IMG/VR virus record: IMGVR_UViG_3300030202_000332
Span: 1 to 53,010 of that record
Direction: 5' to 3' (one strand)
DNA from: a virus
DNA length: 53,010 bases
Made by a program: the position numbers and the translations under genes. Shown here in pieces: positions 13,386-52,248 of this stretch (positions within the stretch are counted from its first letter, which is position 1; every line of letters begins with the position of its first letter). The notes beneath the pieces were generated by a model that saw only the letters and a program-made list of their open reading frames with translations, was not told the DNA's origin and did not search any database.

Positions 13386-13411
13386 TATAACGTACTTTCT
13401 TTAGATTTTGT
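13386..13411 (-). promoter_or_regulatory. Late element: ACAAAA-N12-ACGTTATA, 5 nt before ATG
   Basis: Minus strand ACAAAA (13,406-13,411), 12 nt, ACGTTATA (13,386-13,393), then TAGGT and the ATG. It lies 4 nt after the T-run of the terminator at 13,416. One of ten instances of this geometry in the window. Confidence 0.7.
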
Positions 13412-13415
13412 ACAT

Positions 13416-13448
13416 AAAAAAAGAGAGGCGTATTACTACAACCTCCCT
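13416..13448 (-). terminator. Intrinsic terminator 1 of 3
   Basis: Minus strand stem AGGGAGG/CCTCTCT (one G-T), 13-nt loop, then a T-run. Nearest of three terminators between the tail-tube candidate and the late element of the portal unit. Confidence 0.65.
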
Positions 13449-13477
13449 CTTATTACATTCAATCTACTACAATATAC

Positions 13478-13505
13478 AAAAAAAAAGGGAAGTACAAAAC
13501 TTCCC
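13478..13505 (-). terminator. Intrinsic terminator 2 of 3
   Basis: Minus strand perfect 7-bp stem GGGAAGT/ACTTCCC, loop TTTGT, then nine T. Unit B has no counterpart. Confidence 0.75.
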
Positions 13506-13559
13506 CTCTAACAAAAACTAATATTTATGAAAACTTAAATTAAGTCTAAGTAAAGATAT

Positions 13560-13588
13560 AAAAAAAAGGGATACGATTTACATACCCC
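13560..13588 (-). terminator. Intrinsic terminator 3 of 3
   Basis: Minus strand 8-bp stem GGGGTATG/CGTATCCC (two G-T), loop TAAAT, then eight T. Conserved base for base in unit B (40,687-40,715). It is the first terminator met after the tail-tube candidate gene. Confidence 0.8.
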
Positions 13589-13617
13589 TTTAATTTTTCT
13601 GATTTTAATTATTCCTA

Positions 13618-14142
13618 TTAGTTAGGAGTAATTTGTGATCCCTGATTAGCTCCTGTAACTACACTCGCTTGAGTGAAGTCTGGTGCTGCTTTCTCTGTAG
13701 CTATAAATGTTAAAGAGTAACCACTCTTATCTCCCATAGCTGCTCCTGTTCCAAAAGTACCTGTAGTTAATTCAGCTCCGTTCTCTTTACCTAGTAAGAA
13801 GTAGTTTCCATTGTAATCCTCTACCCAAATATGTGGGCGAGCTATTGCAAGAAGTCTTAATTCATCCTGAGTATCTTTATCTAAGAAAGTAAAGTTAAGA
13901 GTAAGGGTGCTTTCATAAAAAGTAGTACCATTGTCTCTAGAGCTTGTTACAGTAGTTTCTAAAGATGAATCACCTTTTAAATCAAACTGATATACGGTAG
14001 GAGTACCAGAAATAGCTGTAATCTCAAAAGAAGTGATTGTAATAGTGCCTAATCCACCAAAGTCAGTGAAATAAACACTTTTTAAACCACCTACTGCTGA
14101 TTTACAGGGTACTGTTCTACCATTAGTTAATAAACAAGCCAT
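13618..14142 (-). CDS. Major tail tube protein candidate
   Basis: 174 residues. Starts MACLLTNGRTVPCKSAVGGLKSVYF and continues beta-rich with FDLKGDSSLETTVTSSRDNGTTFYE, LTLNFTFLDK and an HIWVEDYNGNYFLLG hairpin. The G-R-x-x-P-C-K...GGLKxVYF opening and single-domain length match tail tube proteins of flavobacterial siphoviruses. Highly expressed position between capsid and a triple terminator. A head decoration protein is the alternative. Confidence 0.65.
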   Translation of the reverse strand: MACLLTNGRTVPCKSAVGGLKSVYFTDFGGLGTITITSFEITAISGTPTVYQFDLKGDSSLETTVTSSRDNGTTFYESTLTLNFTFLDKDTQDELRLLAIARPHIWVEDYNGNYFLLGKENGAELTTGTFGTGAAMGDKSGYSLTFIATEKAAPDFTQASVVTGANQGSQITPN

Positions 14143-14159
14143 ATTCTAAAGTTATTATA

Positions 14160-14182
14160 AAAAGGGTAGCCTAAACCACCCC
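14160..14182 (-). terminator. Weak intrinsic terminator after capsid gene
   Basis: Minus strand stem GGGTGG/CTACCC (one G-T), 6-nt loop, then five T. In unit B (41,342-41,364) the stem is GGGTAG/CTACCC, fully paired. Likely partial termination that sets the capsid to tail-tube ratio. Confidence 0.6.
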
Positions 14183-14196
14183 TCTTAGATTAGTTA

Positions 14197-15126
14197 TTAT
14201 GAATAGTAAACAATATCTGCTCCTACTCCAATTTGACATCCTGCTGTATATCTCATAATTACTCTAACATTCTGAGATCCATCTTTGTCAGCCATATCAA
14301 TAAATCGAACTTCATTAATATCTGAGACTAAGCCCGTGCCAAAGAAAAGGTTGCTTTTGTAAGTAAGAAGCATTTTGTTGTTACCCATTCCGTTACAAAC
14401 AAATACTGGAATACCTTCAAAAGTTAATTGTGCTCCATTAGAATACCAAGATGTACCTTGATTGTCGATACCAGCTGCACCTAAACCTGCTGTTCCAAAA
14501 CCTCCTAAAGCTCTAATATAAGCTCTAGCTACATTTGTTGATACATAAAGAGTTAAGTCTGATTTCTGTAATGTTTGCTTATTAGCAGCATCTACTACAG
14601 CTCCCATTTGTGCAATTACATTAGCTGAATCAACAGCTACTGCTGCTACATCTACTACAGTTGCATCAGCTAAAGCTAAGTTTTGAAAACCATCAAAGTC
14701 ATCAGCACCTGCTGCACCTGCCCAGATAGAAGTTTCTAAAGCATCTGCTACTTGAGCAGCTACTCTTGAGATTACATAATCCTCAAAAGAAGCAGGAATA
14801 TCAGCATAAGCTGAAAAACCCAGCTCAATCGCTTGCCATTCATCTCTAAGCTCTTTTTTACATAACTGAGCGTTAGCTTGAAGTTCTTTAGTTTCTAAAA
14901 CTTTCTCTGTTAAAGTAAGCGTTGTTGTTGTTGCATCAAAGTCACACGATGCACCTTTTACTACGTTTGCCCAAGCACCTACCTGAATTACAGATTTGTA
15001 CTTTACATTAGGCATAATTGTCACTGCTCCTGCATCTAAAGTTGATGCACTAAGCAACGCACTGCCTATAATTTTACCACTAAATTCACCTGCGTAAGTT
15101 CCAGCGGTATAAGTTGGATTTGCCAT
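14197..15126 (-). CDS. Major capsid protein, HK97 fold
   Basis: 309 residues. Opening MANPTYTAGTYAGEFSGKII, then KELQANAQLCKKELRDEWQAIELG (spine helix region), VADALETSIWAGAAGADDFDG, LYVSTNVARAYIRALGG and a beta-rich P-domain end (VRVIMRYTAGCQIGVGADIVYYS). Length and all-alpha/beta layout fit an HK97-type coat protein with the delta domain supplied separately by the scaffold just upstream. Over 90 percent identical to unit B. Two conserved Cys per subunit side. Follows the scaffold by 12 nt. Confidence 0.85.
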   Translation of the reverse strand: MANPTYTAGTYAGEFSGKIIGSALLSASTLDAGAVTIMPNVKYKSVIQVGAWANVVKGASCDFDATTTTLTLTEKVLETKELQANAQLCKKELRDEWQAIELGFSAYADIPASFEDYVISRVAAQVADALETSIWAGAAGADDFDGFQNLALADATVVDVAAVAVDSANVIAQMGAVVDAANKQTLQKSDLTLYVSTNVARAYIRALGGFGTAGLGAAGIDNQGTSWYSNGAQLTFEGIPVFVCNGMGNNKMLLTYKSNLFFGTGLVSDINEVRFIDMADKDGSQNVRVIMRYTAGCQIGVGADIVYYS

Positions 15127-15138
15127 TTTTAATTAATT

Positions 15139-15759
15139 TTAATTATTATACATTTTACTTAATACACGATCTAAAGAAGTCTGCGCTCTTTTTTGTGCAT
15201 ACTTTAGATTGATCTTTTTGTTATCCACTTCTGGATTATGAGAAATAGCTTCAGCAGCTGGAGTTTCTGATAACTCTTGCTTAACTTGCTCCTCAACTTT
15301 TTCAAAATCTTCTTTTTCTCCCATCTTAGATTTTAAATCTGCAATAGCATCTTCAAGATTTTTAATTCTTTTTTCCATACCTTCCCAATCATATACAGCA
15401 GCCTCTTTGCCATCATCTTCTAATTCCTCTTCTTTCATCTCATCTTCTTTTTGTGGTACATCATCTGATACAACTCTGTAATCAGCAATAATACCCTCTT
15501 CTTCAACTACTAAAAGTTTACCATCTTCCATTACATACTCTCCGATTGGCATAGCTACTTTCTCATCATCAGTTACGATAAATATTTCATCACCTTTTTC
15601 AAATGAGCTAGATTCAACGATTGTTCCGTTTTCAAGTTTAGCCTGAGCTAACTCTACTTTAACCTCTTCTTGAGTTTCTTTTAACTCAACAGGGTTTTTT
15701 TCTATCTCCTCTTCCCCAAGGAAAGTCTTGATATTGTTTAAAATTTCTGTTGCTTTCAT
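15139..15759 (-). CDS. Head scaffold-like protein
   Basis: 206 residues, very acidic. N-terminal MKATEILNNIKTFLGEE, a beta segment (VAMPIGEYVMEDGKLLVVEE), then a long coiled coil (GMEKRIKNLEDAIADLKSKMG) and a basic C-terminal helix (INLKYAQKRAQTSLDRVLSKM). Acidic, coiled-coil, basic capsid-binding tail, directly between protease and capsid: the expected scaffold layout. Headed by a late element exactly 5 nt before ATG. Confidence 0.75.
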   Translation of the reverse strand: MKATEILNNIKTFLGEEEIEKNPVELKETQEEVKVELAQAKLENGTIVESSSFEKGDEIFIVTDDEKVAMPIGEYVMEDGKLLVVEEEGIIADYRVVSDDVPQKEDEMKEEELEDDGKEAAVYDWEGMEKRIKNLEDAIADLKSKMGEKEDFEKVEEQVKQELSETPAAEAISHNPEVDNKKINLKYAQKRAQTSLDRVLSKMYNN

Positions 15760-15764
15760 ATTAC

Positions 15765-15790
15765 TATAACGTGTTTAAATTTATATTTGT
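15765..15790 (-). promoter_or_regulatory. Late element: ACAAAT-N12-ACGTTATA, 5 nt before ATG
   Basis: Minus strand ACAAAT (15,785-15,790), 12 nt, ACGTTATA (15,765-15,772), GTAAT, ATG of the scaffold gene. Same geometry at 42,915-42,940. Confidence 0.7.
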
Positions 15791-15798
15791 ATTTTTGA

Positions 15799-15942
15799 TT
15801 AAGTTGTTTTAGTTATGTTCCCAATACCTTGCGCTCTTATGCTACCATCACAGCACTTTACATTGTAAGTGTTGTCCTCACACAAACAACCTCTTCTGCC
15901 TCCTCTAGGGCTTGATTTACCTGGTATAAATACTTTTCTCAT
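15799..15942 (-). CDS. 47-residue Cys-rich protein (RRGCLC...KCC)
   Basis: Starts MRKVFIPGKSSPRGGRRGCL; second half YNVKCCDGSIRAQGIGN. The four Cys (CxC and CC) could bind one zinc. The same RRGCLC...(K/E)CC...QGIGNITKTT frame is in unit B (42,949-43,095). I have seen this type next to scaffold genes in phages of Bacteroidota; function unknown. ATGA overlap with the upstream gene. Confidence 0.7.
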   Translation of the reverse strand: MRKVFIPGKSSPRGGRRGCLCEDNTYNVKCCDGSIRAQGIGNITKTT

Positions 15943-16058
15943 CTACCTTGTCCTTTATATATTTTTTTGTATCCTGTTTGTCCTACACTCGCATTCTTAC
16001 TATGCGGATGTGATTTTCTTTTTGGTTTTATATATCCTCTAACTATATTTCTAGCCAT
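15939..16058 (-). CDS. 39-residue basic protein (KPKRKSHPHSKN)
   Basis: Extremely basic: IKPKRKSHPHSKNAS, then GQTGYKKIYKGQGR. Near-identical C-terminal 30 residues in unit B (43,092-43,211). The TAA of the protease overlaps its ATG. May bind nucleic acid or the acidic scaffold; function unknown. Confidence 0.7.
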   Translation of the reverse strand: MARNIVRGYIKPKRKSHPHSKNASVGQTGYKKIYKGQGR

Positions 16059-17077
16059 TATTTAATAGGAATACAATTAGGTACTAACTTTCCATTTTTC
16101 ATTTTCATTCCGTACTGCTCGTATCCTGCTGTGCAAGGTTTCTTAAGATCTATTAAGTCTAATTCTTTTAACTTTGCAAAGCTCCATCTCTTAGCAGCTA
16201 AACCACCCCAAAGTAAATAAGATATAGTACCACACGCCTCTTTATCTGACTCATCATAATACTCCTCAGCTCTACTTAGATAGGAGTACATTCTTTTTAT
16301 AGTTTCTATGCTTATTGCTTTGCCTTGAGCAAGTTGTTTAGCTCGTATCTTGCCAACTTGAGTAGCACACTTGTTATTTATTTTTTCGTTTAGCTTTATG
16401 CCTCTTTTTGCATTGTTTTTTACCGCATCTGGGTAATCAGTATAAGATTCTAACTCTCTTCTCTTACCACCCTTTACTCTACCATCATCTTTTACGATAG
16501 ATCTAATTACTGATAGCATCTCTGCTGCCTCTTCCTCTTCAAAGTCATTTACAGGCTCTTGAGGGCGTTCAGCTTTATCTGCAAAGTAACCCTCGATACT
16601 AAATCCTTTTACTTTTCCTGTTTTTACATATTCATCCCATACCTCATCAGAGTTAACCTTAACTGCACCCATCCAAGTACCTACAGGTACATCTAATCCA
16701 TACTTTCTAGATTTATCGTGTACATCATCTTCTACTAACCAAGATTCTACTAAAGTCAATCCTTGCAAACTATGCTGATGCTCTAGTGTAGTATTGTTTT
16801 GTTTACCATTCATTAAATACAACTGAGATGCTTTCTCTATTGTTTTTTTTGAGAAATAGATATAATACTCTTCCTCTCCACTCTTTCTGTATATTGGTTT
16901 ATTAGGTACTAGTAATGCACCCATTAAGATTCGCTTCTCGTTTGATACTTCTGCTAATTTAACCTCCTGTGATTTAAGGGCTATAAAATCTTCCTCTATA
17001 GCTGGTGATTCCACTAAAGAAATAGCTTCTATCCCTGAAAATACATTGTCACCTAAAATAAGTTCTATAATCTTCAT
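16058..17077 (-). CDS. Prohead protease (XkdF/S78_2-like) with C-terminal extension
   Basis: 339 residues. N-terminal about 180 match XkdF-like serine proteases: LVESPAIEEDFIAL, GALLVPNKPIYR, TTLEHQHSLQGLTLVESW with the catalytic His region, and KTGKVKGFSIEGYF with the catalytic Ser. The C-terminal part (CATQVGKIRAKQLAQGK, RMYSYLSRAEEYY, ACGTISYLLWGG) is a second domain often attached in this group. The last about 25 residues (TAGYEQYGMKMKNGKLVPNC) are missing in unit B. Processes scaffold and capsid during maturation. Late element 5 nt before ATG. Confidence 0.8.
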   Translation of the reverse strand: MKIIELILGDNVFSGIEAISLVESPAIEEDFIALKSQEVKLAEVSNEKRILMGALLVPNKPIYRKSGEEEYYIYFSKKTIEKASQLYLMNGKQNNTTLEHQHSLQGLTLVESWLVEDDVHDKSRKYGLDVPVGTWMGAVKVNSDEVWDEYVKTGKVKGFSIEGYFADKAERPQEPVNDFEEEEAAEMLSVIRSIVKDDGRVKGGKRRELESYTDYPDAVKNNAKRGIKLNEKINNKCATQVGKIRAKQLAQGKAISIETIKRMYSYLSRAEEYYDESDKEACGTISYLLWGGLAAKRWSFAKLKELDLIDLKKPCTAGYEQYGMKMKNGKLVPNCIPIK

Positions 17078-17082
17078 ATTAT

Positions 17083-17108
17083 TATAACGTTTAATTTATT
17101 TTTTTTGT
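17083..17108 (-). promoter_or_regulatory. Late element: ACAAAA-N12-ACGTTATA, 5 nt before ATG
   Basis: Minus strand ACAAAA (17,103-17,108), 12 nt, ACGTTATA (17,083-17,090), ATAAT, ATG of the protease gene. It begins one base after the tape-measure stop. Same geometry at 44,136-44,161. Confidence 0.7.
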
Positions 17109-18797: not shown

Positions 18798-18925
18798 AAC
18801 TGTTCTTTTATTTGTTTATATCCCTCTTTTAATGTTTGTGGTATTTTATATTTACCTTTTGCTATTTTTATATTTTCCGTTTCAGCCTTTGCATAAGGCA
18901 ATAACTCTATTATATTTCTTATCAT
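18776..18925 (-). CDS. 49-residue protein before the tape measure
   Basis: Starts MIRNIIELLPYAKAETENIK, then IAKGKYKIPQTLKEGYKQ. The unit B homologue (45,880-46,026) is about 80 percent identical. Its ATG overlaps the upstream TAA and its end overlaps the tape-measure start by 22 nt. Perhaps a small tail-assembly factor. Confidence 0.7.
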   Translation of the reverse strand: MIRNIIELLPYAKAETENIKIAKGKYKIPQTLKEGYKQIKEQLWQRKSI

Positions 18926-21126: not shown

Positions 21127-22088
21127 TAAATAATGTTATTAATAATATCGTTAGCATCTTCTACATCTAGTGTATATTGTACTAGTTTATCGTTTACAGA
21201 TGTTTTCTTTGTTAGTGAATTAGTAACTACTGTAACAGGGTGCCATTGTTTAGTGATAAAAGCATCTCCACTTGGAGTGTCGTAGTATATCCATACATAC
21301 TCACTTAACATTATATCTTGTATTACATCATTGTAAGCAGTTAATAAATAGTTGGTGTTTAGAGTAAAGCGTTTCCTACCATTTTTGTTAAATGTTAATA
21401 TTTGATGATCCTTTTTGTCATAAGAGCTAGAGGATTGTGTAAATATATTTCTTTTAAACGTATCACTTTTTGTAGTTATACTTTCTACATTCTTTAAGAA
21501 AAAATAAAAGTCCTGTGGAATACCTGCTTTATTAATAAACCTCATCTGTATTGCATCATACTTTGGATTGCATATTCTATCAATAGTCCAAGTATTATTA
21601 GTACCAACAACTGTTGTAGCTGAGGTGCTTATGGTGTTTTTTGTTAAAGTTCCTCCTGCCCATTCATAAGCAAATGAAGCTGTGTTATCTGGTAAATAAA
21701 TCGTTTCTGTACCGCCTGTATTTGTTACTGCTTCATCAGTCGTATCAACCTCTGAATAACCATCCCAAAAACTATTGTATCCATAATAGCCAGTATGTGT
21801 TACTGTTGCTGTAGCTAATTGTGTACCTCCACCATCTACCGCATCATAAGCATACCAAGTGCCACTTATTGATACTGTATCTATATCATCTCCTGTTGCT
21901 CCACCATAATTAGCTACATAGTAATCTTTTGCTAAAGTAGATAGTTCAAATACTGTTCTATTATTTGTAGCATTTTTTACTATCGTGTATCTTAGTGTGC
22001 TATCAATAGTCAACTCTAACTTTGCTGATAAGTGTGTAGCTGTTGTTACATTTAAAAAAAAGGGAGTTCTTAGTAATATCGTTGCCAT
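21126..22088 (-). CDS. Tail structural protein, 320 aa
   Basis: Beta-rich, starts MATILLRTPFFLNVTTATHLSA and contains TIDSTLRYTIVKNATNNRTVFELSTLAKDYY, later FKRNIFTQSSSSYDKKDHQI and LLTAYNDVIQDIMLSEYVWIY. N- and C-terminal thirds are conserved with unit B while the middle is variable. One-base overlap (ATGA-like) with the next gene. Likely a tail or baseplate component; no named family. Confidence 0.6.
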   Translation of the reverse strand: MATILLRTPFFLNVTTATHLSAKLELTIDSTLRYTIVKNATNNRTVFELSTLAKDYYVANYGGATGDDIDTVSISGTWYAYDAVDGGGTQLATATVTHTGYYGYNSFWDGYSEVDTTDEAVTNTGGTETIYLPDNTASFAYEWAGGTLTKNTISTSATTVVGTNNTWTIDRICNPKYDAIQMRFINKAGIPQDFYFFLKNVESITTKSDTFKRNIFTQSSSSYDKKDHQILTFNKNGRKRFTLNTNYLLTAYNDVIQDIMLSEYVWIYYDTPSGDAFITKQWHPVTVVTNSLTKKTSVNDKLVQYTLDVEDANDIINNII

Positions 22089-22090
22089 AA

Positions 22091-23197: not shown

Positions 23198-23930
23198 TTT
23201 TTCATTTTCTTTTTAATTTGATTAGCCTCATAGTCTGCCTTATCTTTCATATAGCTTAATGCATATAAACATTCGTGCATACTTAGCTTAGTGATATCTT
23301 TAAATCTTCTAATATCTCCTTGAGCGAGTCCGTGAATTGATTGATACCACCCCCATTTTCTTCCAAAATTAGCCTCTGAGCTGAGTTCATCTCCTCCTCC
23401 TGTAAATAGCTCAGCATAGTTTTCGATAAGTCCATCCCTAAATGATAAAAAAAAACAATAGAGCCTAATACTGCATCCATCGGCATATCTTTCATTAAAT
23501 CAGACTTATCACCTTTGTATTCCTCTATTAAATACTTATTGCTGTATCTTTGAATAATAGGGCGGTATAAAACACCCATAGCCTTTTCAATATTATCAAA
23601 GTCTCCTATATAAGTATCTAAATCTACATACTCACCAAAAGTCATTTCTTCAATATTTGGTATAAACCCATACTCTACTCCATTAATAGTAAACTCTTTT
23701 ACCAGTGGAGGCGTTTCTTTAAACATCTCTGATAATACGTTAGTAATATCTCGTATGCTAGTAGCCCTCATCTTTAGAATTAAATCTGATCTAATACCAC
23801 AAAATATTTCAATCATTTTGATAGCTAGAAAAGATTCATCATCATTATTATCTTGTATCTTTAAAAACTTTTGATACTGAGCTAAAGTTATCTCGTTAAG
23901 AGAATTAGGTACTATTACTTCTTTTCTCAT
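23194..23930 (-). CDS. Tail assembly chaperone, -1 frameshift fusion (GT-like)
   Basis: If ribosomes slip back one base on the U9 run, 161 zero-frame residues continue into 84 residues of the -1 frame (245 aa). The extension reads LSFRDGLIENYAELF, then FGRKWGWYQSIHGLAQGDIR and MHECLYALSYMKDKA, a pattern common to T-domain extensions. Unit B gives a 245-residue product with the same motifs in the same frame. Stop TGA overlaps the next ATG. Confidence 0.8.
23283..23930 (-). CDS. Tail assembly chaperone, zero-frame product (G-like)
   Basis: 215 residues: PNSLNEITLAQYQKFLKIQD, IEIFCGIRSDLILKM, then YGFIPNIEEMTFGEYVDLDTYIG and GSIVFFYHLGMDLSKTM. Helical protein upstream of tail genes. At codons 159-161 the mRNA has a run of nine U; the downstream -1 frame stays open and conserved, so this is the short form of a G/GT-type chaperone pair that loads the tape measure. 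Late element 5 nt before ATG. Confidence 0.8.
   Translation of the reverse strand: MRKEVIVPNSLNEITLAQYQKFLKIQDNNDDESFLAIKMIEIFCGIRSDLILKMRATSIRDITNVLSEMFKETPPLVKEFTINGVEYGFIPNIEEMTFGEYVDLDTYIGDFDNIEKAMGVLYRPIIQRYSNKYLIEEYKGDKSDLMKDMPMDAVLGSIVFFYHLGMDLSKTMLSYLQEEEMNSAQRLILEENGGGINQFTDSLKEILEDLKISLS
23447..23455 (-). promoter_or_regulatory. Programmed -1 frameshift slippery site (U9)
   Basis: Minus strand GTT TTT TTT TAT: nine T, containing the X XXY YYZ-type heptamer T TTT TTT. Conserved at 50,256-50,264 including the following ATCATTTAGGGATGGA, although flanking codons differ. Confidence 0.8.
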
Positions 23931-23935: not shown

Positions 23936-23961
23936 TATAACGTAAAAAATAAAAGTTTTAG
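23936..23961 (-). promoter_or_regulatory. Late element: CTAAAA-N12-ACGTTATA, 5 nt before ATG
   Basis: Minus strand CTAAAA (23,956-23,961), 12 nt, ACGTTATA (23,936-23,943), TAAGT, ATG of the tail chaperone. It begins 3 nt after the terminase stop. Identical boxes at 50,745-50,770. Confidence 0.7.
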
Positions 23962-23964: not shown

Positions 23965-25170
23965 CTAACTTATAGTGTACTTACCTCTACTAGGGTTTTT
24001 AAGTTGGAAACTTACAGCGTATCTTACTGCATCTATTAAATGGTTAAATTTGTCTATAGGTGTGTTAGACTTTCTTTCTAACCAAGAGTAGTTGTTTAGT
24101 TCTTTGATGAGGTTAATACTATCCTCGCTTATCACTAAATCATAATCCTGTAATAACGATATACCATATGTTACACTACCTTGCCCTTTTACACTAGGCT
24201 TTACATTACATCCTTTTGATCGTATCTCACTAATTAGTCTAGGCTCAGCACTATCAGCTACTATTAAGCCATCTTTAGCGTGTTGTTGATTTAAGCGTGT
24301 TATTTCGCTTGTAGTTAAGCTAGGTAAGTAAAAACACTCTTTAAGGTATATTCGTTTATTAGAAGTGTCTATATTGGTTTCTATTAGCGTTGTAGGATCA
24401 TTACTAAATCCATAATCTTGCCCCCATACGCTTACACCTACTTTCTTAAACTCACCAATACTCCAATTACTAAATATTACGCCCTCTGCTTTATCTAACC
24501 ATCCACCCATTATAGCGTGTTTGTATTTTAGTGGGCGTCTTACTTTTAATTCGTTTATTTGCTTTAAAAATGATTCTGATAGGTTTTCTAGATTGTCTTG
24601 GTAGGTAGTGTGTATGTAAGTACAATTATCTTTGGTGTTATTGCTACCCTCTTGTACTCCTTTATCCTCAAAGAATCTTTGATATATCCAATGCTCTTTA
24701 GTAGTAGGGTTAAGTATTAATATTATCCTGTTTTGGTTTTTAGTTTCTCGTATTGTTAAATCTATCTTATCAAACGTACCCTCATCTGTTAATTCCTCAG
24801 CCTCATCTAATACCCAAGTAGTAACACCTGTAATAGATTTAAGATTTGCTGTTTGATCTCCTGATGATGTTTTAATACCCTTAAATACTATCTTACTTCC
24901 TGATCTTATATTTATTATTTCATCTTTGGTTATGTGAAAGTCGTCAAACTTATCTAAGAGTTCTATCTTCTCTATAAATTCAGGTATAATAGAAACATAT
25001 GCTGAGGTTAGTGTATATCTAGTGAATAGTATTGTGTGGTTTGCCTCGTATGTTAGCAGCACTAGCATTAAGTTAACAGAAAATGATTTACCAGAAGCTC
25101 TACCTCCTGTTATTACATAATATCTAGTATCATTACCAATAGCTTGGTATTTAGTGTTTATATCAATCAC
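23965..25170 (-). CDS. terL: Terminase large subunit (Terminase_3 type)
   Basis: 401 residues. ATPase: Walker A GGRASGKS at 22-29, Walker B TTWVLDEAEEL near 120, and a coupling NPTTKEHW. RNase-H-like nuclease: VWGQDYGFSNDPTTLIE (first Asp), VADSAEPRLISE (second Asp), FNHLIDAVRYAV (third Asp). Full-length packaging motor that cuts and pumps DNA into proheads. Only the very end (KNPSRGKYTIS) closely resembles the unit B enzyme; the two are different Terminase_3 lineages. 4-nt overlap with terS. Confidence 0.9.
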   Translation of the reverse strand: MIDINTKYQAIGNDTRYYVITGGRASGKSFSVNLMLVLLTYEANHTILFTRYTLTSAYVSIIPEFIEKIELLDKFDDFHITKDEIINIRSGSKIVFKGIKTSSGDQTANLKSITGVTTWVLDEAEELTDEGTFDKIDLTIRETKNQNRIILILNPTTKEHWIYQRFFEDKGVQEGSNNTKDNCTYIHTTYQDNLENLSESFLKQINELKVRRPLKYKHAIMGGWLDKAEGVIFSNWSIGEFKKVGVSVWGQDYGFSNDPTTLIETNIDTSNKRIYLKECFYLPSLTTSEITRLNQQHAKDGLIVADSAEPRLISEIRSKGCNVKPSVKGQGSVTYGISLLQDYDLVISEDSINLIKELNNYSWLERKSNTPIDKFNHLIDAVRYAVSFQLKNPSRGKYTIS

Positions 25171-25433
25171 TTAAACTTGATTAGATCCTTAAAGCTGATA
25201 CTAAAGCCCTCTGAGCTGCTAATATCTATCTTTTCTTTTGGTTTACCATATCTGTAATTAAAATACATTTGTATTGCTCTTATATCACCTTTAGCTATTA
25301 GTTCTCCTAGTTTCTTTAGTGCAATATCACTATCAATAATATTATCTAACCTTTCTACTAATTTATATTCATCAGCTTTAGGTTTTCTACCTGCTCCTAA
25401 TCTACTACCTCCTCTATTTTCTAGTTTGTACAT
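25167..25433 (-). CDS. terS: Terminase small subunit-like protein
   Basis: 88 residues. N-terminal GGSRLGAGRKPKADEYKLVER, the GGxRxGAGRKP signature of many small terminases, then a short helical oligomerisation region (MYFNYRYGKPKEK). Short for a TerS. It recognises the packaging site together with TerL. It starts 26 nt after the late element at 25,460, so unlike the others it would have a short leader. Confidence 0.75.
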   Translation of the reverse strand: MYKLENRGGSRLGAGRKPKADEYKLVERLDNIIDSDIALKKLGELIAKGDIRAIQMYFNYRYGKPKEKIDISSSEGFSISFKDLIKFK

Positions 25434-25459
25434 TTTGAAAAACTTTGATTAATCAAATA

Positions 25460-25485
25460 TATAACGTTAGTTTTCAAGATTTTGT
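25460..25485 (-). promoter_or_regulatory. Late element: ACAAAA-N12-ACGTTATA, upstream of terS
   Basis: Minus strand ACAAAA (25,480-25,485), 12 nt, ACGTTATA (25,460-25,467). It overlaps the last codons and TAA of the upstream TTG-start gene and lies 26 nt from the terS ATG. The variable distance to ATG here argues for a promoter rather than a ribosome-binding element. Confidence 0.7.
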
Positions 25486-25610: not shown

Positions 25611-26230
25611 AATAATCTTGTTTGTTGTTTATGTTGTTCTATTCGTTTGTTTGCTGCTTCAAAGTATTCTTTGTCTATTTCGTATGCTGTTAGCTCAAAG
25701 CCTAAATTATGACAAGCTATAGCTATTGAGCCACTACCTAAATGTGTGTCAAGTATTGTATCTCCCTCTTTAGCATAATTCATAAGCAACCACTCATATA
25801 ACTGTATAGGTTTTTGTGTAGGGTGTATGCTTCCACCCTCCCACATTATTTGATGCTGAATTTGCTTTCCTGTGTCAAATACTTTACCATTGATGTTATA
25901 AGAAGTCCATAATAATTCAGCTTGTGCAAAATTAGGTGCAGGATTGTTTTTTACCCAACAAATAAAAGATTTGGTGGAGTATAAATGCTCCATAAAATAA
26001 TTAGCTCCACAAATAATTTGATTTTGACTTACTCTAAATAATTCTTTGAAATAATATTTATTTGGAGTTGCATCATCCCAATTTTTGTTTTTCGCTTCAT
26101 ACTTTTTTCTTGAATGTAAACCCACACCTTGAGCAGCACCAATACCATAAGGAGGATCAACAATAGCTAAGTCAAACTGATTGTCTGACATCTCTTTCAT
26201 TGCCTCCATACAGTCTTGATTGTATATCAT
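25607..26230 (-). CDS. DNA methyltransferase, beta class (N6-adenine or N4-cytosine)
   Basis: 207 residues. Motif IV DPPYGIG from residue 25 comes before the SAM-binding motif I (DTHLGSGS, near 170), the order of beta-class amino-methyltransferases. HPTQKPIQLYEWLL is the typical segment before motif I. About the minimal catalytic size with almost no target-recognition domain. It would modify phage DNA against host restriction. In unit B an in-frame 513-bp deletion leaves only residues 1-19 and 191-207. Confidence 0.85.
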   Translation of the reverse strand: MIYNQDCMEAMKEMSDNQFDLAIVDPPYGIGAAQGVGLHSRKKYEAKNKNWDDATPNKYYFKELFRVSQNQIICGANYFMEHLYSTKSFICWVKNNPAPNFAQAELLWTSYNINGKVFDTGKQIQHQIMWEGGSIHPTQKPIQLYEWLLMNYAKEGDTILDTHLGSGSIAIACHNLGFELTAYEIDKEYFEAANKRIEQHKQQTRLF

Positions 26231-26589
26231 TCTGTTCCTGATATTATTTGATCGTGTGGTATTCTGTAAGTTCCAAACTGTTCATCATAACCATCATTAA
26301 ACTTATCTCCCTCGATCTCTTTTTGGAGATGGGCAAGGCTGCGCCAAGCAATCTTTGCTGAGTGGCGTACCCCATCAATATCATACATACCATTTTCCAT
26401 TAAGTGTCGCATAAGTGCATCTAAGTCATCACTACTCTTTTCTCTGTCCCAATGTATATCTTCGTCTGGGTGATGTTGTTTACTTCCTATGTAGCTAACT
26501 CTTGCTACTTCGCATAAAGCGTCAGGAAAGTATTTTATTAGCCCTCTATACAAGGGTGTCTCTTTTCTCTTTTGTTTGTTCTTTTCCAT
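26227..26589 (-). CDS. DUF5664 (dATP/dGTP diphosphohydrolase N-terminal domain-like)
   Basis: 120 residues: YRGLIKYFPDALCEVARVSYIGSKQHHPDEDIHW, then SSDDLDALMRHLMENG and HSAKIAWRSLAHLQKEIE. The PDAL.EVARVS..G..QH...I.W pattern and paired helices match DUF5664, the N-terminal domain of phage dNTP diphosphohydrolases; alone it is common in phages of many hosts. It may alter the nucleotide pool. 4-nt overlap with the methyltransferase and 44 nt with the upstream gene. Confidence 0.75.
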   Translation of the reverse strand: MEKNKQKRKETPLYRGLIKYFPDALCEVARVSYIGSKQHHPDEDIHWDREKSSDDLDALMRHLMENGMYDIDGVRHSAKIAWRSLAHLQKEIEGDKFNDGYDEQFGTYRIPHDQIISGTE

Positions 26590-26986
26590 CTATTTCTTTT
26601 AAGGGTAATGTATCAACTATCATCAAAAGTTTCTTTAAGTCCTTTGATTTTGTGTAGTCTACTATGTGGTTTATTAATGCTTTTCTTAATTTTGATTTGT
26701 TTCTTAGTCTAAGTAAGATAATATCAAAATACTTATCTAATAAAGGATTATATCTTCTATGCGTTTCAAACGCCTTTAAACTATATATAGCTGTGGAGTG
26801 ATCATAACTCTTTCCTTTAGATATATAAAAATCTTTTATTTCCATAAACTTCATTCTACAATGATGTCTTAACATAAACGTAAGTAAACTTCTTATCTCT
26901 ACAAATTCTCTTTTCCTAGAGTTTTTAAATACATCTATTCCTGATACATCTATTATATGTCTTGCTATTTTATTTGCCTCTTTCAT
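26546..26986 (-). CDS. DnaA domain IV-like DNA-binding protein
   Basis: 146 residues. EFVEIRSLLTFMLRHHCRMKFMEIKDFYISKGKSYDHSTAIYSLKAFE follows the DnaA C-terminal pattern: R at the start of an HTH helix and a (R/Y)DHSTxxxS(L/H) signature loop. There is no ATPase domain. DnaA domain IV binds origin boxes; a free phage copy could bind the phage origin or titrate host DnaA. The last 15 codons overlap the DUF5664 gene in another frame. Confidence 0.7.
   Translation of the reverse strand: MKEANKIARHIIDVSGIDVFKNSRKREFVEIRSLLTFMLRHHCRMKFMEIKDFYISKGKSYDHSTAIYSLKAFETHRRYNPLLDKYFDIILLRLRNKSKLRKALINHIVDYTKSKDLKKLLMIVDTLPLKEIDGKEQTKEKRDTLV
26663..26760. repeat. Internal copy of the right terminal 98 bases
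   Basis: Identical to 52,913-53,010, the last 98 bases of the window. The first mismatch lies at 26,662/52,912. It is inside the DnaA-IV-like gene. Confidence 0.85.
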
Positions 26987-29522: not shown

Positions 29523-29956
29523 TATGAATGTATTTTATCTTTGTATTTAAATAATAAATTATTTTTAATCAAATATGCTTTTTTAGTTTTAGTATCTCCT
29601 TTACAAACAAACTTATATTCTTTTAATAAATTTTCTTTAACACATTTTTGCAAGTTCTTAGTTAAAAACCAATTATAATGCCTTCCATCATATATAACCC
29701 AGTATTTAGCTTTTGTTGTACTTATGCCTGAAGGTTTGTCATTTGATTCTGTTTCTATTATAATGTTGCCTGTTTGTTTTGATCTTTCATCAAACTTAAC
29801 TTCTATGCCAAAATTTAACTCTGGGATATAAATATCATACTCTTTAAAATAACCGTCCACAATATATGCCTGTTTATATTTCTTTTGTATTTTATTTAAA
29901 AGATATATTTCGTGATATTTACCTCTTTCTAAATCTCTTTTAAAGTCCTCTACCAT
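29522..29956 (-). CDS. PD-(D/E)XK-like nuclease, 144 aa (unit B)
   Basis: Equal length to 1644-2078; LERGKYHEIY, EYDIYIPELNFGIEVKFDER and KPSGISTTKAKYWVIYDG keep all putative catalytic residues. Divergence is concentrated near residues 100-120. Confidence 0.7.
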   Translation of the reverse strand: MVEDFKRDLERGKYHEIYLLNKIQKKYKQAYIVDGYFKEYDIYIPELNFGIEVKFDERSKQTGNIIIETESNDKPSGISTTKAKYWVIYDGRHYNWFLTKNLQKCVKENLLKEYKFVCKGDTKTKKAYLIKNNLLFKYKDKIHS

Positions 29957-30441
29957 TCTATATTTTTTCTAATTAGCATCTTAGTATTTTTATAAGTGTT
30001 GTACAGACTATAATAACTAATGCCTGACTGTCTAGATAATTCTTTTATTGACATTCCTCCAGAAATTAAATCGAAGACTTTCTGATCATACCAAAACATT
30101 TTATCTAATAGGGTGTTTAGTTCTATCATTTTTCCTGTTATGTCTTTATGATTTGTTTCTTGCTCTGGTTGTATGTATTTTTCTAAATGATCTACATTGA
30201 CTTTTTGAATCTTAGATTCCTTTCTGCATAAGTCTAAAAACAAACTTTTAAGACATTTGTACATATAGAAATAATTAATATCGTCTTCATAATTTATATT
30301 AAGTCCTCTATTGATTAAAGTATGTATTTTTATATAAGACTCCTGAACAATGTCTTCACATAAGCTGCCATTGCAACCAAATGATTTTACCACTCGAATC
30401 CAAGTTTCGTGCTTACTAGCTAATTTCTCAAGAGTTGTCAA
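29950..30441 (-). CDS. Small sigma-like factor (unit B)
   Basis: 163 residues. Region-2-like CEDIVQESYIKIHTL and FYMYKCLKSLFLDLCRKES; region-4-like SGGMSIKELSRQSGISYYSL, then YNTYKNTKMLI. The putative DNA-recognition helix (SYYSLYNTYKNTKMLI) is identical to unit A, consistent with both genomes sharing the same late element. Confidence 0.7.
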   Translation of the reverse strand: MTTLEKLASKHETWIRVVKSFGCNGSLCEDIVQESYIKIHTLINRGLNINYEDDINYFYMYKCLKSLFLDLCRKESKIQKVNVDHLEKYIQPEQETNHKDITGKMIELNTLLDKMFWYDQKVFDLISGGMSIKELSRQSGISYYSLYNTYKNTKMLIRKNIEW

Positions 30442-40582: not shown

Positions 40583-40608
40583 TATAACGTACTATCTTTA
40601 AATTTTGT
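40583..40608 (-). promoter_or_regulatory. Late element: ACAAAA-N12-ACGTTATA (unit B)
   Basis: ACAAAA (40,603-40,608), 12 nt, ACGTTATA (40,583-40,590), TAAGT, ATG on the minus strand. Follows a terminator by 4 nt. Confidence 0.7.
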
Positions 40609-42914: not shown

Positions 42915-42940
42915 TATAACGGTTATTAATTATTATTTGT
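42915..42940 (-). promoter_or_regulatory. Late element: ACAAAT-N12-CCGTTATA (unit B)
   Basis: ACAAAT (42,935-42,940), 12 nt, CCGTTATA (42,915-42,922), GTAAT, ATG. One mismatch in the first base of the second box. Confidence 0.65.
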
Positions 42941-42948
42941 ATTTTTGA

Positions 42949-44130: not shown

Positions 44131-44135
44131 ATTAT

Positions 44136-44161
44136 TATAACGAATTAATTTATTATTTTGT
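44136..44161 (-). promoter_or_regulatory. Late element: ACAAAA-N12-TCGTTATA (unit B)
   Basis: ACAAAA (44,156-44,161), 12 nt, TCGTTATA (44,136-44,143), ATAAT, ATG of the protease. Confidence 0.65.
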
Positions 44162-45895: not shown

Positions 45896-46026
45896 TTTAT
45901 TTCGTTTTTAAATTGTTTCATACCCTCCTTAAATGTTTCAGGTATTTTATATTTACCTTTTGCTATTTTAATGTTTTCTGTTTCGCCTTTCGCATAAGGC
46001 AACATATCTATTATATTCTTTATCAT
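45880..46026 (-). CDS. 48-residue protein before tape measure (unit B)
   Basis: MIKNIIDMLPYAKGETENIK, then IAKGKYKIPETFKEGMKQFK. Homologue of 18,776-18,925; TAATG overlap upstream and 16-nt overlap downstream. Confidence 0.7.
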   Translation of the reverse strand: MIKNIIDMLPYAKGETENIKIAKGKYKIPETFKEGMKQFKNEIKWQRK

Positions 46027-48098: not shown

Positions 48099-49030
48099 TA
48101 TACTATGTTATTAATAATGTCGTTTGATTGTTCTACCTGTAGCGTGTATTGAATTAGTCTGTCGTTTAATGATGTCTTAAATGTTAAAGAACTTGATGTC
48201 ACAACAACAGGATTATAAGTTACACCTCCGTAAGTAATCCACACATACTCACTTAATAAAATATCTTCCATTACTTCATTATAAGCCTCAATCATATAGT
48301 TTGTGTTAAGTGTATATTTAATATTTCCGTTTTTATTAAATATTTGATTCTGATGGCTTGTAGTATCGTAATTACTTGAGGAATAAGTAAAGATGTTTCT
48401 TTTAAAATTATCTGATTTAGCAGTCATACTTTCAACCGACTTTAAAAAGAAGTAATGTTCTTGTTGTACTCCATTTCTATTTATAAATGTCATTAATACA
48501 GGAGTGTATTTAGCATTACATATTCTTTCTATTGTCCAAGTATAGTTTCCTGATGCTGCTGCTACGCTTGTCGCTGAGGTGCTTATCGTTGCTTTAGTTG
48601 CAGTTCCTGAATTCATATCATAAGCAAAAGAAGCTGTACTGTCTGGTAAATATATTATTTGACTACCGCCTGTATTTGTTAATTCGTAGTCATCAGGATC
48701 AATGTCTTGATTTACTCCTGCTGTGAATAATGAATATCCATAAAATCCTGTATGTGTTACTGCACCTTGAGCTGTGGCAGTTCCTCCACCATCAACAGCC
48801 GTATAAGTTGTAATGACATAAGAGATAGCTACCGTATCAAATGTTGATGCACTGTCAACCCAATAATCCTTACACAAGGTTGCTATTTCAAATACTGTTC
48901 TATTTGATGTGGCGTTTTTAAGAATTGTATATCTTAAAGTTCCATCTATAGTCAAAGCTATTTGAGCAGACAAATGTGAGCCAGTTGTTACAGTTACAAA
49001 GTATGGACTTCTTAAAAATATATTTGCCAT
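48098..49030 (-). CDS. Tail structural protein, 310 aa (unit B)
   Basis: MANIFLRSPYFVTVTTGSHL; the middle (about 85-145) differs strongly from 21,126-22,088, while SDNFKRNIFTYSSSNYDTT and DILLSEYVWITY are conserved. Confidence 0.6.
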   Translation of the reverse strand: MANIFLRSPYFVTVTTGSHLSAQIALTIDGTLRYTILKNATSNRTVFEIATLCKDYWVDSASTFDTVAISYVITTYTAVDGGGTATAQGAVTHTGFYGYSLFTAGVNQDIDPDDYELTNTGGSQIIYLPDSTASFAYDMNSGTATKATISTSATSVAAASGNYTWTIERICNAKYTPVLMTFINRNGVQQEHYFFLKSVESMTAKSDNFKRNIFTYSSSNYDTTSHQNQIFNKNGNIKYTLNTNYMIEAYNEVMEDILLSEYVWITYGGVTYNPVVVTSSSLTFKTSLNDRLIQYTLQVEQSNDIINNIV

Positions 49031-49542
49031 TATTTATTATTGTTAGGTATAATTATTGAATTGTCTAAATCATCTGCAAAAGCATTTTGTAAATCATCAG
49101 GTAATCTTTTAAATGCTGCGTTAAAAGGTTTAGTAAAAAACATACTAGGCTTTATTCCGTATTTAAATATGTTTTTAGCTACTGCATATTGTAATGATTT
49201 TCTACTTAAAAATTTGCCTGTCTTTTTATCTCTAGTTCCTTCTAAACCTTTTCTTACTACCCATTGACTAAAAGCAGATGGAGGAGGCATTTTTGTAGTA
49301 TAGCTATAAGGTGTGTTGTATTTCTTTTTAGTACCACTTACTCCTTTATCTTGAAATTTACCGTAATCATCCATTATAAAATTTATACCAATAGCATTAC
49401 TACCTTTGAACATCTTATAGTCTAAGCTATTATATAAACTTTTGCTTACATTCATTTTCCTTTTAGTTAAATTAGTTCTCGCTTGTTGGATCACATATTT
49501 ACCAAATTTATTTAAAGTCTCTTTTGTTTCTTTTAGTTGCAT
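49030..49542 (-). CDS. HK97 gp10-like tail completion protein (unit B)
   Basis: 170 residues. YVIQQARTNLTKRKMNVSKS, FIMDDYGKFQDKGVSGTKKK, PPPSAFSQWVVRKGLEGTRD. Homologue of 22,091-22,609. Confidence 0.7.
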   Translation of the reverse strand: MQLKETKETLNKFGKYVIQQARTNLTKRKMNVSKSLYNSLDYKMFKGSNAIGINFIMDDYGKFQDKGVSGTKKKYNTPYSYTTKMPPPSAFSQWVVRKGLEGTRDKKTGKFLSRKSLQYAVAKNIFKYGIKPSMFFTKPFNAAFKRLPDDLQNAFADDLDNSIIIPNNNK

Positions 49543-50006
49543 AAGTTTATATCGTTTGCTACAAATACATCAAAGGTGCAAGTTACTCCTGCCATTTCAT
49601 TCTCAAATCTTTCATAAAAGAACTCACAAGAAGCATCTCCTACTAATTGGTATAAATCTAAATGTATTGTCCCTTGCCTTAATGCTCCAATTAATTTATT
49701 AACCACAGCTAATTGAGTATTGATAACATCTTGCTCATTATTGTTTCCTCTGAATATATCTGTTGTTTCTTCTTTGCTGAGGTTTACTAAGTCCATTGCT
49801 AAAACACTTATGTTAAATTGAAGTACTTGTTCTTGTATTGTAACATTGTTTACTATAATATGGCTTAAAGGAAATATAGTTTGTTTAGATAAATCTATTT
49901 CTGTGATGTCGCCTGTTGTTACAGTATTGACATTTACATCAGCTAACAACTGTGTTTTAATTGTTTCTGTTATTTGATAAAATCCTCTTACTCCTTGATT
50001 GCTCAT
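49533..50006 (-). CDS. Tail terminator/neck protein candidate (unit B)
   Basis: 157 residues, about 90 percent identical to 22,600-23,073. Its ATG overlaps the TGA of the frameshifted chaperone directly, since the membrane peptide gene is absent here. Confidence 0.65.
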   Translation of the reverse strand: MSNQGVRGFYQITETIKTQLLADVNVNTVTTGDITEIDLSKQTIFPLSHIIVNNVTIQEQVLQFNISVLAMDLVNLSKEETTDIFRGNNNEQDVINTQLAVVNKLIGALRQGTIHLDLYQLVGDASCEFFYERFENEMAGVTCTFDVFVANDINLCN

Positions 50007-50739
50007 CTTTTTATTTTACTTTTAATTTGTTTAGCTTCTAGCTCTGCTTTCTCTTTCATAAAACTTAATGCATAAAGACAAGTATGCACATTCAATTTAG
50101 TGATATCTTCAAGTCTTGTAATGTCTGAATTAGCGAGGCTGAAAATTGATTGAAACCAACCCCATTTTTTTCCAAAGTTTCTTGTTGGGCTAAACTCATC
50201 GCCTCCCCCTCCAAATAACTCAGCATAGTTTTCGACAAGTCCATCCCTAAATGATAAAAAAAAAGTATGGAACTTAACACAGCATCCATCGGCATATCTT
50301 TCATTATATTATCTTCATCACCTTTATAATCTTCTATTAAATATTTTTCTTTATGTCTTTGCTTAATGGGACGATAAAGAACATTCATTGCTTTGTGTAG
50401 GTTTTCAAAATCCCCTATGTATGTGTCAAGATCAACATATTCTCCAAAGCTCATATCTTCTAGCATAGGAATAAAACCATATTCTATGTTATTTATTTTA
50501 AACTTCCTTACTAAAGGTGGCTTCTCATTAAACATTTCAGAAAGAACACCTGTGATGTCTTTTATGCTTTTAGCTTTCATCGCTAATATTGTATCGCCTC
50601 TTAGTCCACAGAATATCTCTATCATTTTAATAGCTAAGAAGTTTTCATCTTCGTTGTCATCTTGGATTTTTAAATACTTTTGATATTGCCCTAAAGTTAT
50701 TTCACTTAAGGTGCTAGGAATATTTACTTTTACTTTCAT
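50003..50739 (-). CDS. Tail assembly chaperone, -1 frameshift fusion (unit B)
   Basis: 245 residues after -1 slippage at codon 161, exactly the unit A length. The extension reads LSFRDGLVENYAELF, NFGKKWGWFQSIFSLANSDI and VHTCLYALSFMKEKAELEAK. Amino-acid conservation of this frame, while overlapping zero-frame codons differ, is strong evidence that it is translated. Confidence 0.8.
50092..50739 (-). CDS. Tail assembly chaperone, zero-frame product (unit B)
   Basis: 215 residues, same length as 23,283-23,930: STLSEITLGQYQKYLKIQDD, YGFIPMLEDMSFGEYVDLDT and SILFFYHLGMDLSKTM. Late element 5 nt before ATG. Confidence 0.8.
   Translation of the reverse strand: MKVKVNIPSTLSEITLGQYQKYLKIQDDNEDENFLAIKMIEIFCGLRGDTILAMKAKSIKDITGVLSEMFNEKPPLVRKFKINNIEYGFIPMLEDMSFGEYVDLDTYIGDFENLHKAMNVLYRPIKQRHKEKYLIEDYKGDEDNIMKDMPMDAVLSSILFFYHLGMDLSKTMLSYLEGEAMSLAQQETLEKNGVGFNQFSASLIQTLQDLKISLN
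50256..50264 (-). promoter_or_regulatory. Programmed -1 frameshift slippery site (unit B)
   Basis: Minus strand CTT TTT TTT TAT, nine T, at the same codon position (159-161) as in unit A. Confidence 0.8.
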
Positions 50740-50744
50740 ACATA

Positions 50745-50770
50745 TATAACGTAAAAAATAAAAGTTTTAG
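50745..50770 (-). promoter_or_regulatory. Late element: CTAAAA-N12-ACGTTATA (unit B)
   Basis: CTAAAA (50,765-50,770), 12 nt identical to unit A, ACGTTATA (50,745-50,752), TATGT, ATG. The block is conserved although the terminase gene just upstream is a different lineage. Confidence 0.7.
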
Positions 50771-50773
50771 AAA

Positions 50774-51943
50774 CTATCTTATTGCGTATTGTCCTCTATT
50801 AGGATTCTTTAGTTGCATCATTAAAGCGTATCGAGCTGCATCAATACAGTCAGGATGTAAACCTGTAGGTTTTTGTAGATTGTTACCCTCTTTGTCTCTG
50901 TCCCATACATATCCTTGAAGTTCTTTAATAAGGTTTTTAGACTTTGAGGTTACATAGATTTCATTCTGGTTAATTAGGTTAATCCCATAAACTATTGAAT
51001 CTTTACCCTTTGTAACTGGATATATTTTATGTCCATAGTTTCTTAGCTCTTGTATAGACTTAGGCTCTGCGCTATCTGCATATATGTTTTCTCGTATCTC
51101 GTTCTGTTTTATGAAGTAGCTTAAATCTCTATTTAACATTCCTTTACGATAAAGTACCTCATCAAATATATAAGCATCATTCCATTTGTATAATCTTATA
51201 ATTGTTGAGGGATCAACACTATAACCAAAGTCAAGCCCTGCGCATAATAATCTTGCTTCTTGTGGTATATTGTCAATAGGTTTCCAATCAGGAATGCAGA
51301 CGCCTTCTAAACTTCCTATCTGTCCTAATCCATATACTTTCCACCAGTTAGCCCAATAAGTAGAAGTCTTTCCTTTCTCTCTTGCTTTTTCTATTTCTTT
51401 AATTATTGACTCTGGTAAGCTATCGTTGTCTTTGTATGTTAAGGTTATAAAGTTCGCATCTTGCTGTCCTATAAGTTCTTTGTCTACCCAGAATAAATTA
51501 GCAGGGTTATAGTCAAGCCATATATTGCCTGATGTTCTAACTGCTAATTGTTGGTAAGAATCAAAGCTAACATTATTACACTCGTTTATAAATAAGTCTG
51601 TTCTTCTTGCTCCTCTTAGTTTGTCAGGCTGATCTGTACTAAAGAACTCTATATAGCTACCATTACTAAATTCGTATTTTAAGGTACTCTTATTAAACTT
51701 TCTATCATCATACCTAGCCAATCCCTTTAAGATGTTTAAGAAGTCTTTTAAAGCACCTCTACGTAAGTGTGGTATAGATTCAGCTACTATGCTTATTTCT
51801 TTTCCTTTGTTTCGGATTGCATAGTCTATGAGGATTGCTATGATTGCTATTGTCTTTCCTGCTGATGATCCTCCTCTAATTATGCGAACTCTTTTATTAA
51901 GTTCTCTTAGTTTGTTAAGTGCTGAGGTTTTTGATACTTGCAT
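50774..51943 (-). CDS. terL: Terminase large subunit, different lineage (unit B)
   Basis: 389 residues. Walker A GGSSAGKT at 24-31, Walker B TDLFINECNNV near 135, YNPANLFWVDKE motif, nuclease Asp motifs CAGLDFGYSVDPSTIIRLY, ADSAEPKSIQEL and HPDCIDAARYALMM. Terminase_3 type but largely unalignable by eye with unit A outside motifs. The last residues (LKNPNRGQYAIR) converge with unit A, so the exchange boundary is probably near the 3' end. Confidence 0.9.
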   Translation of the reverse strand: MQVSKTSALNKLRELNKRVRIIRGGSSAGKTIAIIAILIDYAIRNKGKEISIVAESIPHLRRGALKDFLNILKGLARYDDRKFNKSTLKYEFSNGSYIEFFSTDQPDKLRGARRTDLFINECNNVSFDSYQQLAVRTSGNIWLDYNPANLFWVDKELIGQQDANFITLTYKDNDSLPESIIKEIEKAREKGKTSTYWANWWKVYGLGQIGSLEGVCIPDWKPIDNIPQEARLLCAGLDFGYSVDPSTIIRLYKWNDAYIFDEVLYRKGMLNRDLSYFIKQNEIRENIYADSAEPKSIQELRNYGHKIYPVTKGKDSIVYGINLINQNEIYVTSKSKNLIKELQGYVWDRDKEGNNLQKPTGLHPDCIDAARYALMMQLKNPNRGQYAIR

Positions 51944-52191
51944 TAATCAATAAATAAAGGAACATCCTCATTAACGTGAATGTCTTTAGTTTCTCTTGGT
52001 TTACCTGCTACATAGTTGTAGTACAGTTGCACATATTTAAAGTCGCCTTTCTCTAAACCTTTTCTTAAAGCATCAAATGCTAAAGGCTCTAAAGGTGTAA
52101 GTTTCTCAATTAGTTTTACTTCTTCTGTCTTAGGTTTTCTTCCTGCAAAGCCTTTAGTTGAATGTCCTCCGTTATTCTTTCTACCGTCCAT
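51943..52191 (-). CDS. terS: Terminase small subunit-like, different lineage (unit B)
   Basis: 82 residues: GGHSTKGFAGRKPKTEEVKL, then YVQLYYNYVAGKPRETKDI. GRKP signature and short helical body as in unit A, but little other identity. It was exchanged together with terL. 1-nt overlap with terL; ATG 31 nt after the late element. Confidence 0.75.
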   Translation of the reverse strand: MDGRKNNGGHSTKGFAGRKPKTEEVKLIEKLTPLEPLAFDALRKGLEKGDFKYVQLYYNYVAGKPRETKDIHVNEDVPLFID

Positions 52192-52222
52192 AAAAGATTA
52201 ATTTAAATTAATTAATTAATTA

Positions 52223-52248
52223 TATAACGTTAGTTTTCAGGATTTTGT
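52223..52248 (-). promoter_or_regulatory. Late element: ACAAAA-N12-ACGTTATA, upstream of terS (unit B)
   Basis: ACAAAA (52,243-52,248), 12 nt, ACGTTATA (52,223-52,230), 31 nt from the terS ATG through an AATT-repeat leader. Confidence 0.7.

Follow-up and report, generated by a model that had tools for sequence, protein, structure and literature searches.

Ten copies of a bipartite element, AAAWN13CGTTATA, on a 53,010-base viral record (IMG/VR IMGVR_UViG_3300030202_000332; this whole stretch is termed the window) are, with a probability of roughly 0.87, late promoters, the reader of which would be an ECF-like sigma factor encoded in each of the two related phage genomes contained therein. On balance, we also favor the wider view that the widespread group of marine Bacteroidota phages to which they belong runs its late programme by its own ECF-type sigma factor, with the promoter fused to the start codon and the late mRNAs leaderless.

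The two phage genomes of the window

The two genomes are ~68-94% identical by segment. Contig 3300030061_000258 corresponds to positions 1-26,765 of the window (unit A) alone with 99.99-100% identity, while contig 3300030061_000207 matches unit B alone (99.7-99.99% over the part compared). The join between the units resides within a 589-base segment, which is 93.6% identical between them. The window has the appearance of two distinct phages of ~26.7 kb each, connected within a segment that both of them share. Since each genome also occurs alone and the join lies in the shared segment, the ten sites correspond to five putative promoters in each of two phages, which agrees with the original prediction of five loci in both genomes. 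The units contain genes for terminase, portal, head protease, tail fibre, lysis, helicase, SSB and exonuclease, the gene content of a small tailed phage. Among cultured phages, the portal protein matched only those of the Nonlabens phages P12024S and P12024L (~39% identity). Both units are assigned to phages of Bacteroidota, probably with marine flavobacteria as hosts.

Sequence and geometry of the element

All ten predicted sites were recovered on the minus strand (Table 1), and the pattern had no other match in the window. The genome has a GC content of ~32% and the element is AT-rich, which might favor a chance repetition. The probability of this explanation is practically nil, as it is refuted by ten copies on one strand only against a mean of 0.13 (maximum 3) in 100 dinucleotide shuffles, and by the conservation of the element across ~160 loci and, as a variant, in a cultured phage. 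CGTTATA alone was found 14 times in the window, compared to 5.3 expected; the four copies beyond the ten sites lacked the upstream box, and three of them were located on the plus strand.

The upstream box was present at each of the ten sites as foreseen, and its invariant part could be narrowed to an AAA occupying positions -17 to -15 relative to the C of CGTTATA. Depending on the gene, the box takes the form ACAAAW or CTAAAA. At eight of the ten sites exactly 5 nt separate the element from an ATG, the last base before the ATG is always T (8/8) and a long ORF is opened each time; the two presumed terS copies possess the longer leaders (26 and 31 nt) that had been described for them. The assumption that the element sits just after terminators held for the site at 13,386, where hairpins were computed, and by eye for 40,583; none of the remaining loci conformed to it. 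Dissimilarity to the promoter of the Bacteroidota primary sigma factor was affirmed by the absence of the TAnnTTTG -7 element from the phage element. The host-type TANNTTTG (TAnnTTTG) was not enriched in the window (89 vs 83 expected), and a scan with the sigma-70 consensus disclosed fewer promoter-like sites than in shuffles; we claim no early promoters. In unit A, the terS leader contains the palindrome TTGATTAATCAA, which may be an operator.

Table 1. Predicted promoters and associated features of the window. Relatives: unique related sequences with CGTTATA at most 60 nt upstream of the ortholog.
Feature	Position	Strand	Remarks
Predicted promoter, unit A	13386..13411	-	ACAAAA-N13-CGTTATA; 5 nt before ATG of 121-aa gene 13015-13380, which precedes the portal gene; 3/3 relatives, also in IMG/VR pattern sample
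Predicted promoter, unit A	15765..15790	-	ACAAAT-N13-CGTTATA; 5 nt before ATG of gene 15139-15759; 7/7 relatives
Predicted promoter, unit A	17083..17108	-	ACAAAA-N13-CGTTATA; 5 nt before ATG of gene 16058-17077 (head maturation protease-like); 11/13 relatives
Predicted promoter, unit A	23936..23961	-	CTAAAA-N13-CGTTATA; 5 nt before ATG of gene 23283-23930; 57/78 relatives
Predicted promoter, unit A	25460..25485	-	ACAAAA-N13-CGTTATA; 26 nt before ATG of presumed terS 25167-25433; 42/65 relatives
Predicted promoter, unit B	40583..40608	-	counterpart of 13386
Predicted promoter, unit B	42915..42940	-	counterpart of 15765
Predicted promoter, unit B	44136..44161	-	counterpart of 17083
Predicted promoter, unit B	50745..50770	-	counterpart of 23936
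Predicted promoter, unit B	52223..52248	-	counterpart of 25460; 31-nt leader before presumed terS 51943-52191
ECF-like sigma factor, unit A	2072..2563	-	163 aa; proposed reader; PHROG, profile and fold matches
ECF-like sigma factor, unit B	29950..30441	-	163 aa; 82% identical to the sigma factor of unit A
Two terminator-like hairpins	13483..13591 (13,591-13,565 and 13,509-13,483)	-	just upstream of the 13386 promoter
Palindrome TTGATTAATCAA	25445..25456	-	within the unit A terS leader, directly following the predicted start

Conservation in related marine loci

For comparison, 160 related viral sequences (1.7 Mb) were fetched by means of the sigma factor and the large terminase; they share ancestry, hence counts across these loci are not independent trials. 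In this set, the distance from CGTTATA to the next ATG was exactly 5 nt in 102 cases, while each of the distances 0-4 and 6-12 was represented by 1-12 cases. Orthologs of the five window genes were preceded by CGTTATA at the frequencies given in Table 1. Upstream of NinG the sequence was encountered in 4 of 53 cases by the same 60-nt test, and upstream of ~30 other genes of the related loci it was not found at all. The element, its geometry and its gene specificity can be read directly from these sequences. The scan of related genomes by which the original prediction was to be checked yielded the same five orthologs and supports a promoter.

The fixed 5-nt distance would also be compatible with CGTTATA-N5-ATG being a translation-initiation signal instead of a promoter, particularly as adenines at -3 and -6 modulate initiation in flavobacteria (PMC6847099) and CGTTATA places an A at -6. 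We regard this as highly improbable because these phages have ~30 further gene families from which the element is absent, it resides 26-39 nt upstream of terS across the relatives, it requires a second box at a fixed distance, and it changes along with the sigma factor (see below).

IMG/VR was additionally scanned by the pattern ACAAAA-N13-CGTTATA-N5-ATG alone, which gave at least 86 matches in at least 80 loci. Among the matches listed, 83 open a long or truncated ORF, namely 70 orthologs of the genes at 13015 or 16058, 11 copies of a 203-aa gene of another lineage and two ORFs cut by the contig end; three are chance matches with a 4-codon ORF. A description of this promoter in Bacteroidota phages was not found in the open-access literature.

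The phage-encoded sigma factor

The proposed reader was compared with sigma factors by several approaches. It matched phrog_1740 (sigma factor) in PHROG at 3e-6, and its Pfam matches to regions 2 and 4 were below the curated cut-offs; in the sigma family, 13 of 31 members matched Pfam Sigma70_r2 at E<=0.01. A phmmer search of the PDB with the single sequence gave only weak, irrelevant top matches, so the alignment profile of the family was needed, whose best matches were ECF SigE chains (0.0028). The AlphaFold model (mean pLDDT 85.5) displays helices for region 2 (~11-76) and region 4 (~101-160), i.e., regions 2 and 4 only, connected by a low-confidence linker; its low pTM of 0.46 is as expected for two flexibly linked domains. 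With Foldseek, the top matches of the model were almost all ECF sigma factors (probability 1.00), the best being M. tuberculosis SigE, SigH and SigL, E. coli sigmaE, SigW and AlgU, with full-length TM-scores of only ~0.4 because the domain orientation differs. Judged by size, region layout and fold, the protein is predicted to be an ECF-like sigma factor that binds RNA polymerase and initiates transcription.

A tblastn search of 50,697 phage records with the window sigma factor yielded no match at E 0.01, and on this ground the protein was not assigned to the gp47/gp36 sigma family of phages 7-11 and phiEco32. A self-composed generic ECF-like query recovered unrelated phage sigma factors by tblastn and was set aside as evidence.

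The sigma gene is located in the replication block of each unit. In unit A, it is adjoined just downstream by gene 1644-2078. None of 43 sigma genes had CGTTATA upstream; therefore, expression of the sigma factor presumably sets in earlier and from a different promoter.

Co-occurrence and coordinated change of sigma factor and element

Among the element-bearing records, each of the 21 with a length of 20 kb or more had a sigma gene, as did one of 19.9 kb, whereas the three chance-match records had none; five shorter element-bearing fragments contained no sigma gene in the part covered. Upstream of the 23283 ortholog (unique regions), CGTTATA occurred in 32 of 34 cases with a group-1 (window-type) sigma factor but in none of 16 with a group-2 sigma factor. 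In the group-2 contigs, its place is taken by AAAC(G/T)A, usually together with a box resembling CTTTATA or TATTATA. This alternative promoter was found post hoc and at one gene only (further copies were sought in the group-2 genomes), and the contrast is only suggestive. The two exceptions in group 1 are phage P12024S, whose sites lie elsewhere, and the lineage L135/L148, which possesses the promoter CTAAAA-N12-GTTTATATATTA (GTTTATA clade). The sigma factor of this lineage is nested among those associated with CGTTATA, with a stem length of 1.08 changes per column, and shows an altered region-2 segment. From the sigma tree, we used only the group split and this nested clade; a count of label changes was dropped, as it was inflated by contigs not covering the promoter ('unk'). 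Where the sigma factor diverges, the promoter apparently changes, too.

A corresponding arrangement was detected in the cultured Nonlabens phage P12024S. Its homologous sigma factor P12024S_33, annotated with Sigma-70 region 2, is only ~23% identical to that of the window and matched the family profile at 1e-31, the final profile including P12024S_33 itself. The phage contains eight CGTTA-N7-ATG sites (1.2 expected), of which four show exactly the AAAW-N13 spacing of the window (0.07 expected). Six of the eight precede annotated genes, at 179, 3031, 5412, 23961, 25201 and 26802, sites of this type being found before structural-region genes. The -10 sequence is CGTTAAT or CGTTACT, in contrast to CGTTATA in the window, and the promoters are unannotated in the record. 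Cellulophaga phi10:1 (first 50 kb), Polaribacter P12002S, Croceibacter P2559S and Flavobacterium 11b revealed neither a sigma gene nor a site at the exact spacing.

These data also bear on the question of whether the element might be a promoter for an ECF sigma factor of the host, the phage sigma factor serving something else. Such a division is improbable, as the phage sigma factor accompanies the element in every one of the long records, both change together, and the four flavobacterial phages devoid of the sigma factor are devoid of the element as well.

Start points and proposed mechanism

At unique sites among the IMG/VR matches listed, the base preceding the ATG was T in 53 of 53 cases, compared to 37% at other starts. 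In the terS leaders, where the base is not dictated by a start codon, position 6 downstream of CGTTATA was a purine in 28 of 29 cases, though position 2 shows the same degree of bias and purines also abound at positions 7 and 8, so that position 6 alone is not decisive. At the other genes, the gap of 5 nt makes position 6 coincide with the A of the ATG. Taken together, the gap, the T at -1, the terS purine and the start distance of 6-9 bp in related phage sigma factors (PMC8948821) make it fairly likely that the late mRNAs are leaderless and initiated at the A of the ATG. A late promoter with leaderless output, as put forward in the original prediction, fits best, with the 5' ends and the late timing deduced from the sequence.

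For related phage sigma factors, the distance between promoter element and transcription start is 6-8 or 6-9 bp (PMC8948821), and positions 7-9 would be inside or after the ATG. Moreover, leaderless species make up 5.5% of the F. psychrophilum mRNAs (PMC9723704), and leaderless late mRNA would thus be unusual for the host. Both points speak for promoters as described that produce a short leader, by use of a later in-frame ATG or by varying starts. We consider this rather unlikely, since the 5-nt gap is kept over hundreds of sites while the sequence varies, and the invariant T at -1 is what is expected of a pyrimidine/purine initiator at T-A.

We adhere to leaderless late transcription as the working model. 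The sigma factor would be made early from other promoters, its gene lying in the replication block without the element. Host RNA polymerase carrying this ECF-like sigma factor would then recognise AAA(A/T) 13-14 bp upstream of CGTTATA as a -35/-10 pair, and five late operons with the structural genes would be switched on. At four of them, the A of the ATG would be the first base transcribed and the mRNA would be leaderless, while terS alone would have a leader. Sigma binding, late timing and the exact start sites are what we infer in this scheme. If it is true, late translation could rely on leaderless initiation, which might set it apart from the translation of the host, and the system would bear on initiation by ribosomes not using Shine-Dalgarno sequences.

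Significance and comparison with known systems

It is hereby predicted from sequence alone how a large group of marine phages, most of them uncultured, switches its transcription, with factor and promoters named. The Nonlabens phages P12024S and P12024L offer a cultured test system. Pairs of sigma factor and promoter that change together represent a natural series for ECF specificity, and the compact promoter set could serve independently of host sigma factors in Bacteroidota.

Among the systems known, an ECF-type motif of F. psychrophilum, SM6, likewise contains CGT in its -10 region, in keeping with the promoter reading, but it belongs to host genes (type IX secretion) and host sigma factors, and the host mRNAs are mostly leadered (PMC9723704). 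Closer parallels are found in phages of other hosts (PMC8948821). Salmonella phage 7-11 also uses the host polymerase with a phage-encoded sigma factor (SaPh711_gp47) and bipartite late promoters, GTAAtg-16-aCTA, present in eight copies with starts 6-9 bp from the element. It differs in the box sequences and the host phylum, and a leaderless layout is not mentioned in the passages of PMC8948821 considered. Coliphage phiEco32 encodes gp36, a sigma factor that controls middle as well as late genes, with starts 6-8 bp downstream, and that has been termed ECF (PMC7881722). Its promoter is a single element, tAATGTAtA, without a -35 box, whereas the window element is bipartite, and gp36 exhibits no homology to region 4 (PMC8948821), whereas the window sigma factor has a region-4-like helix-turn-helix. 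A phage-encoded sigma factor and promoter-like elements before structural genes, the features by which the 7-11 and phiEco32 type is recognised, were both found here. Very probably, the system works like the regulons of these two phages. It differs from them in the sigma factor, the promoter sequence and the host phylum, and its layout is probably leaderless.

Composition of the record

The 53-kb record apparently consists of two separate phage genomes of approximately 26.7 kb, which are joined at a common segment of 589 bases. As each genome was also found alone on other contigs, the record is likely an assembly chimera, though a recombinant or a concatemer is possible. A further contig, of 47.7 kb, likewise harbors two sigma copies.

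Candidate regulatory sites and genes

In the terS leaders a dyad, TTG-N6-CAA (TTGATTAATCAA, TTGAATAAACAA), was present in 45 out of 65 cases, compared to 21 of 829 other upstream regions. It was also observed in group-2 phages, despite their different -10 box. The dyad may be an operator or a packaging-related site. Upstream of the NinG-like gene, the relatives have in common a tract of AT repeats, after which come AGGCGAAGTTATA and TTTTTTTTGTAA; this region could be a promoter of early or middle genes.

Positions of features in the window
Feature	Position	Strand	Remarks
Gene overlapping 3′-end of sigma gene	1644-2078	-	144 aa; phrog_13596 (unknown-function family)
AT-repeat tract, AGGCGAAGTTATA, TTTTTTTTGTAA	about 4789-4848	-	Upstream of NinG-like gene
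TTG-N6-CAA dyad	25445-25456	-	Directly after predicted terS start; also in terS leaders of relatives
589-base segment	26172-26760, 52422-53010		Common to both units
dATP/dGTP diphosphohydrolase N-terminal domain	26227-26589	-	Early block; 2e-10
DnaA C-terminal-like match	26546-26986	-	Early block; weak (1.8e-4, below cut-off)

The position of the gene overlapping the sigma gene would fit an anti-sigma or co-factor. On the contig L036, which already carries the family sigma, a second, very divergent sigma-like ORF (8251-8850) possibly encodes a second regulator.

The promoter-like element was also detected in a distinct phage lineage (L297 and L298, on the records of L165 and L215), whose sigma factor is very divergent (E about 1e-10). 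There, ACAAAA-N13-CGTTATA-N5-ATG, the same arrangement as in the window, precedes a 203-aa gene of unknown function.
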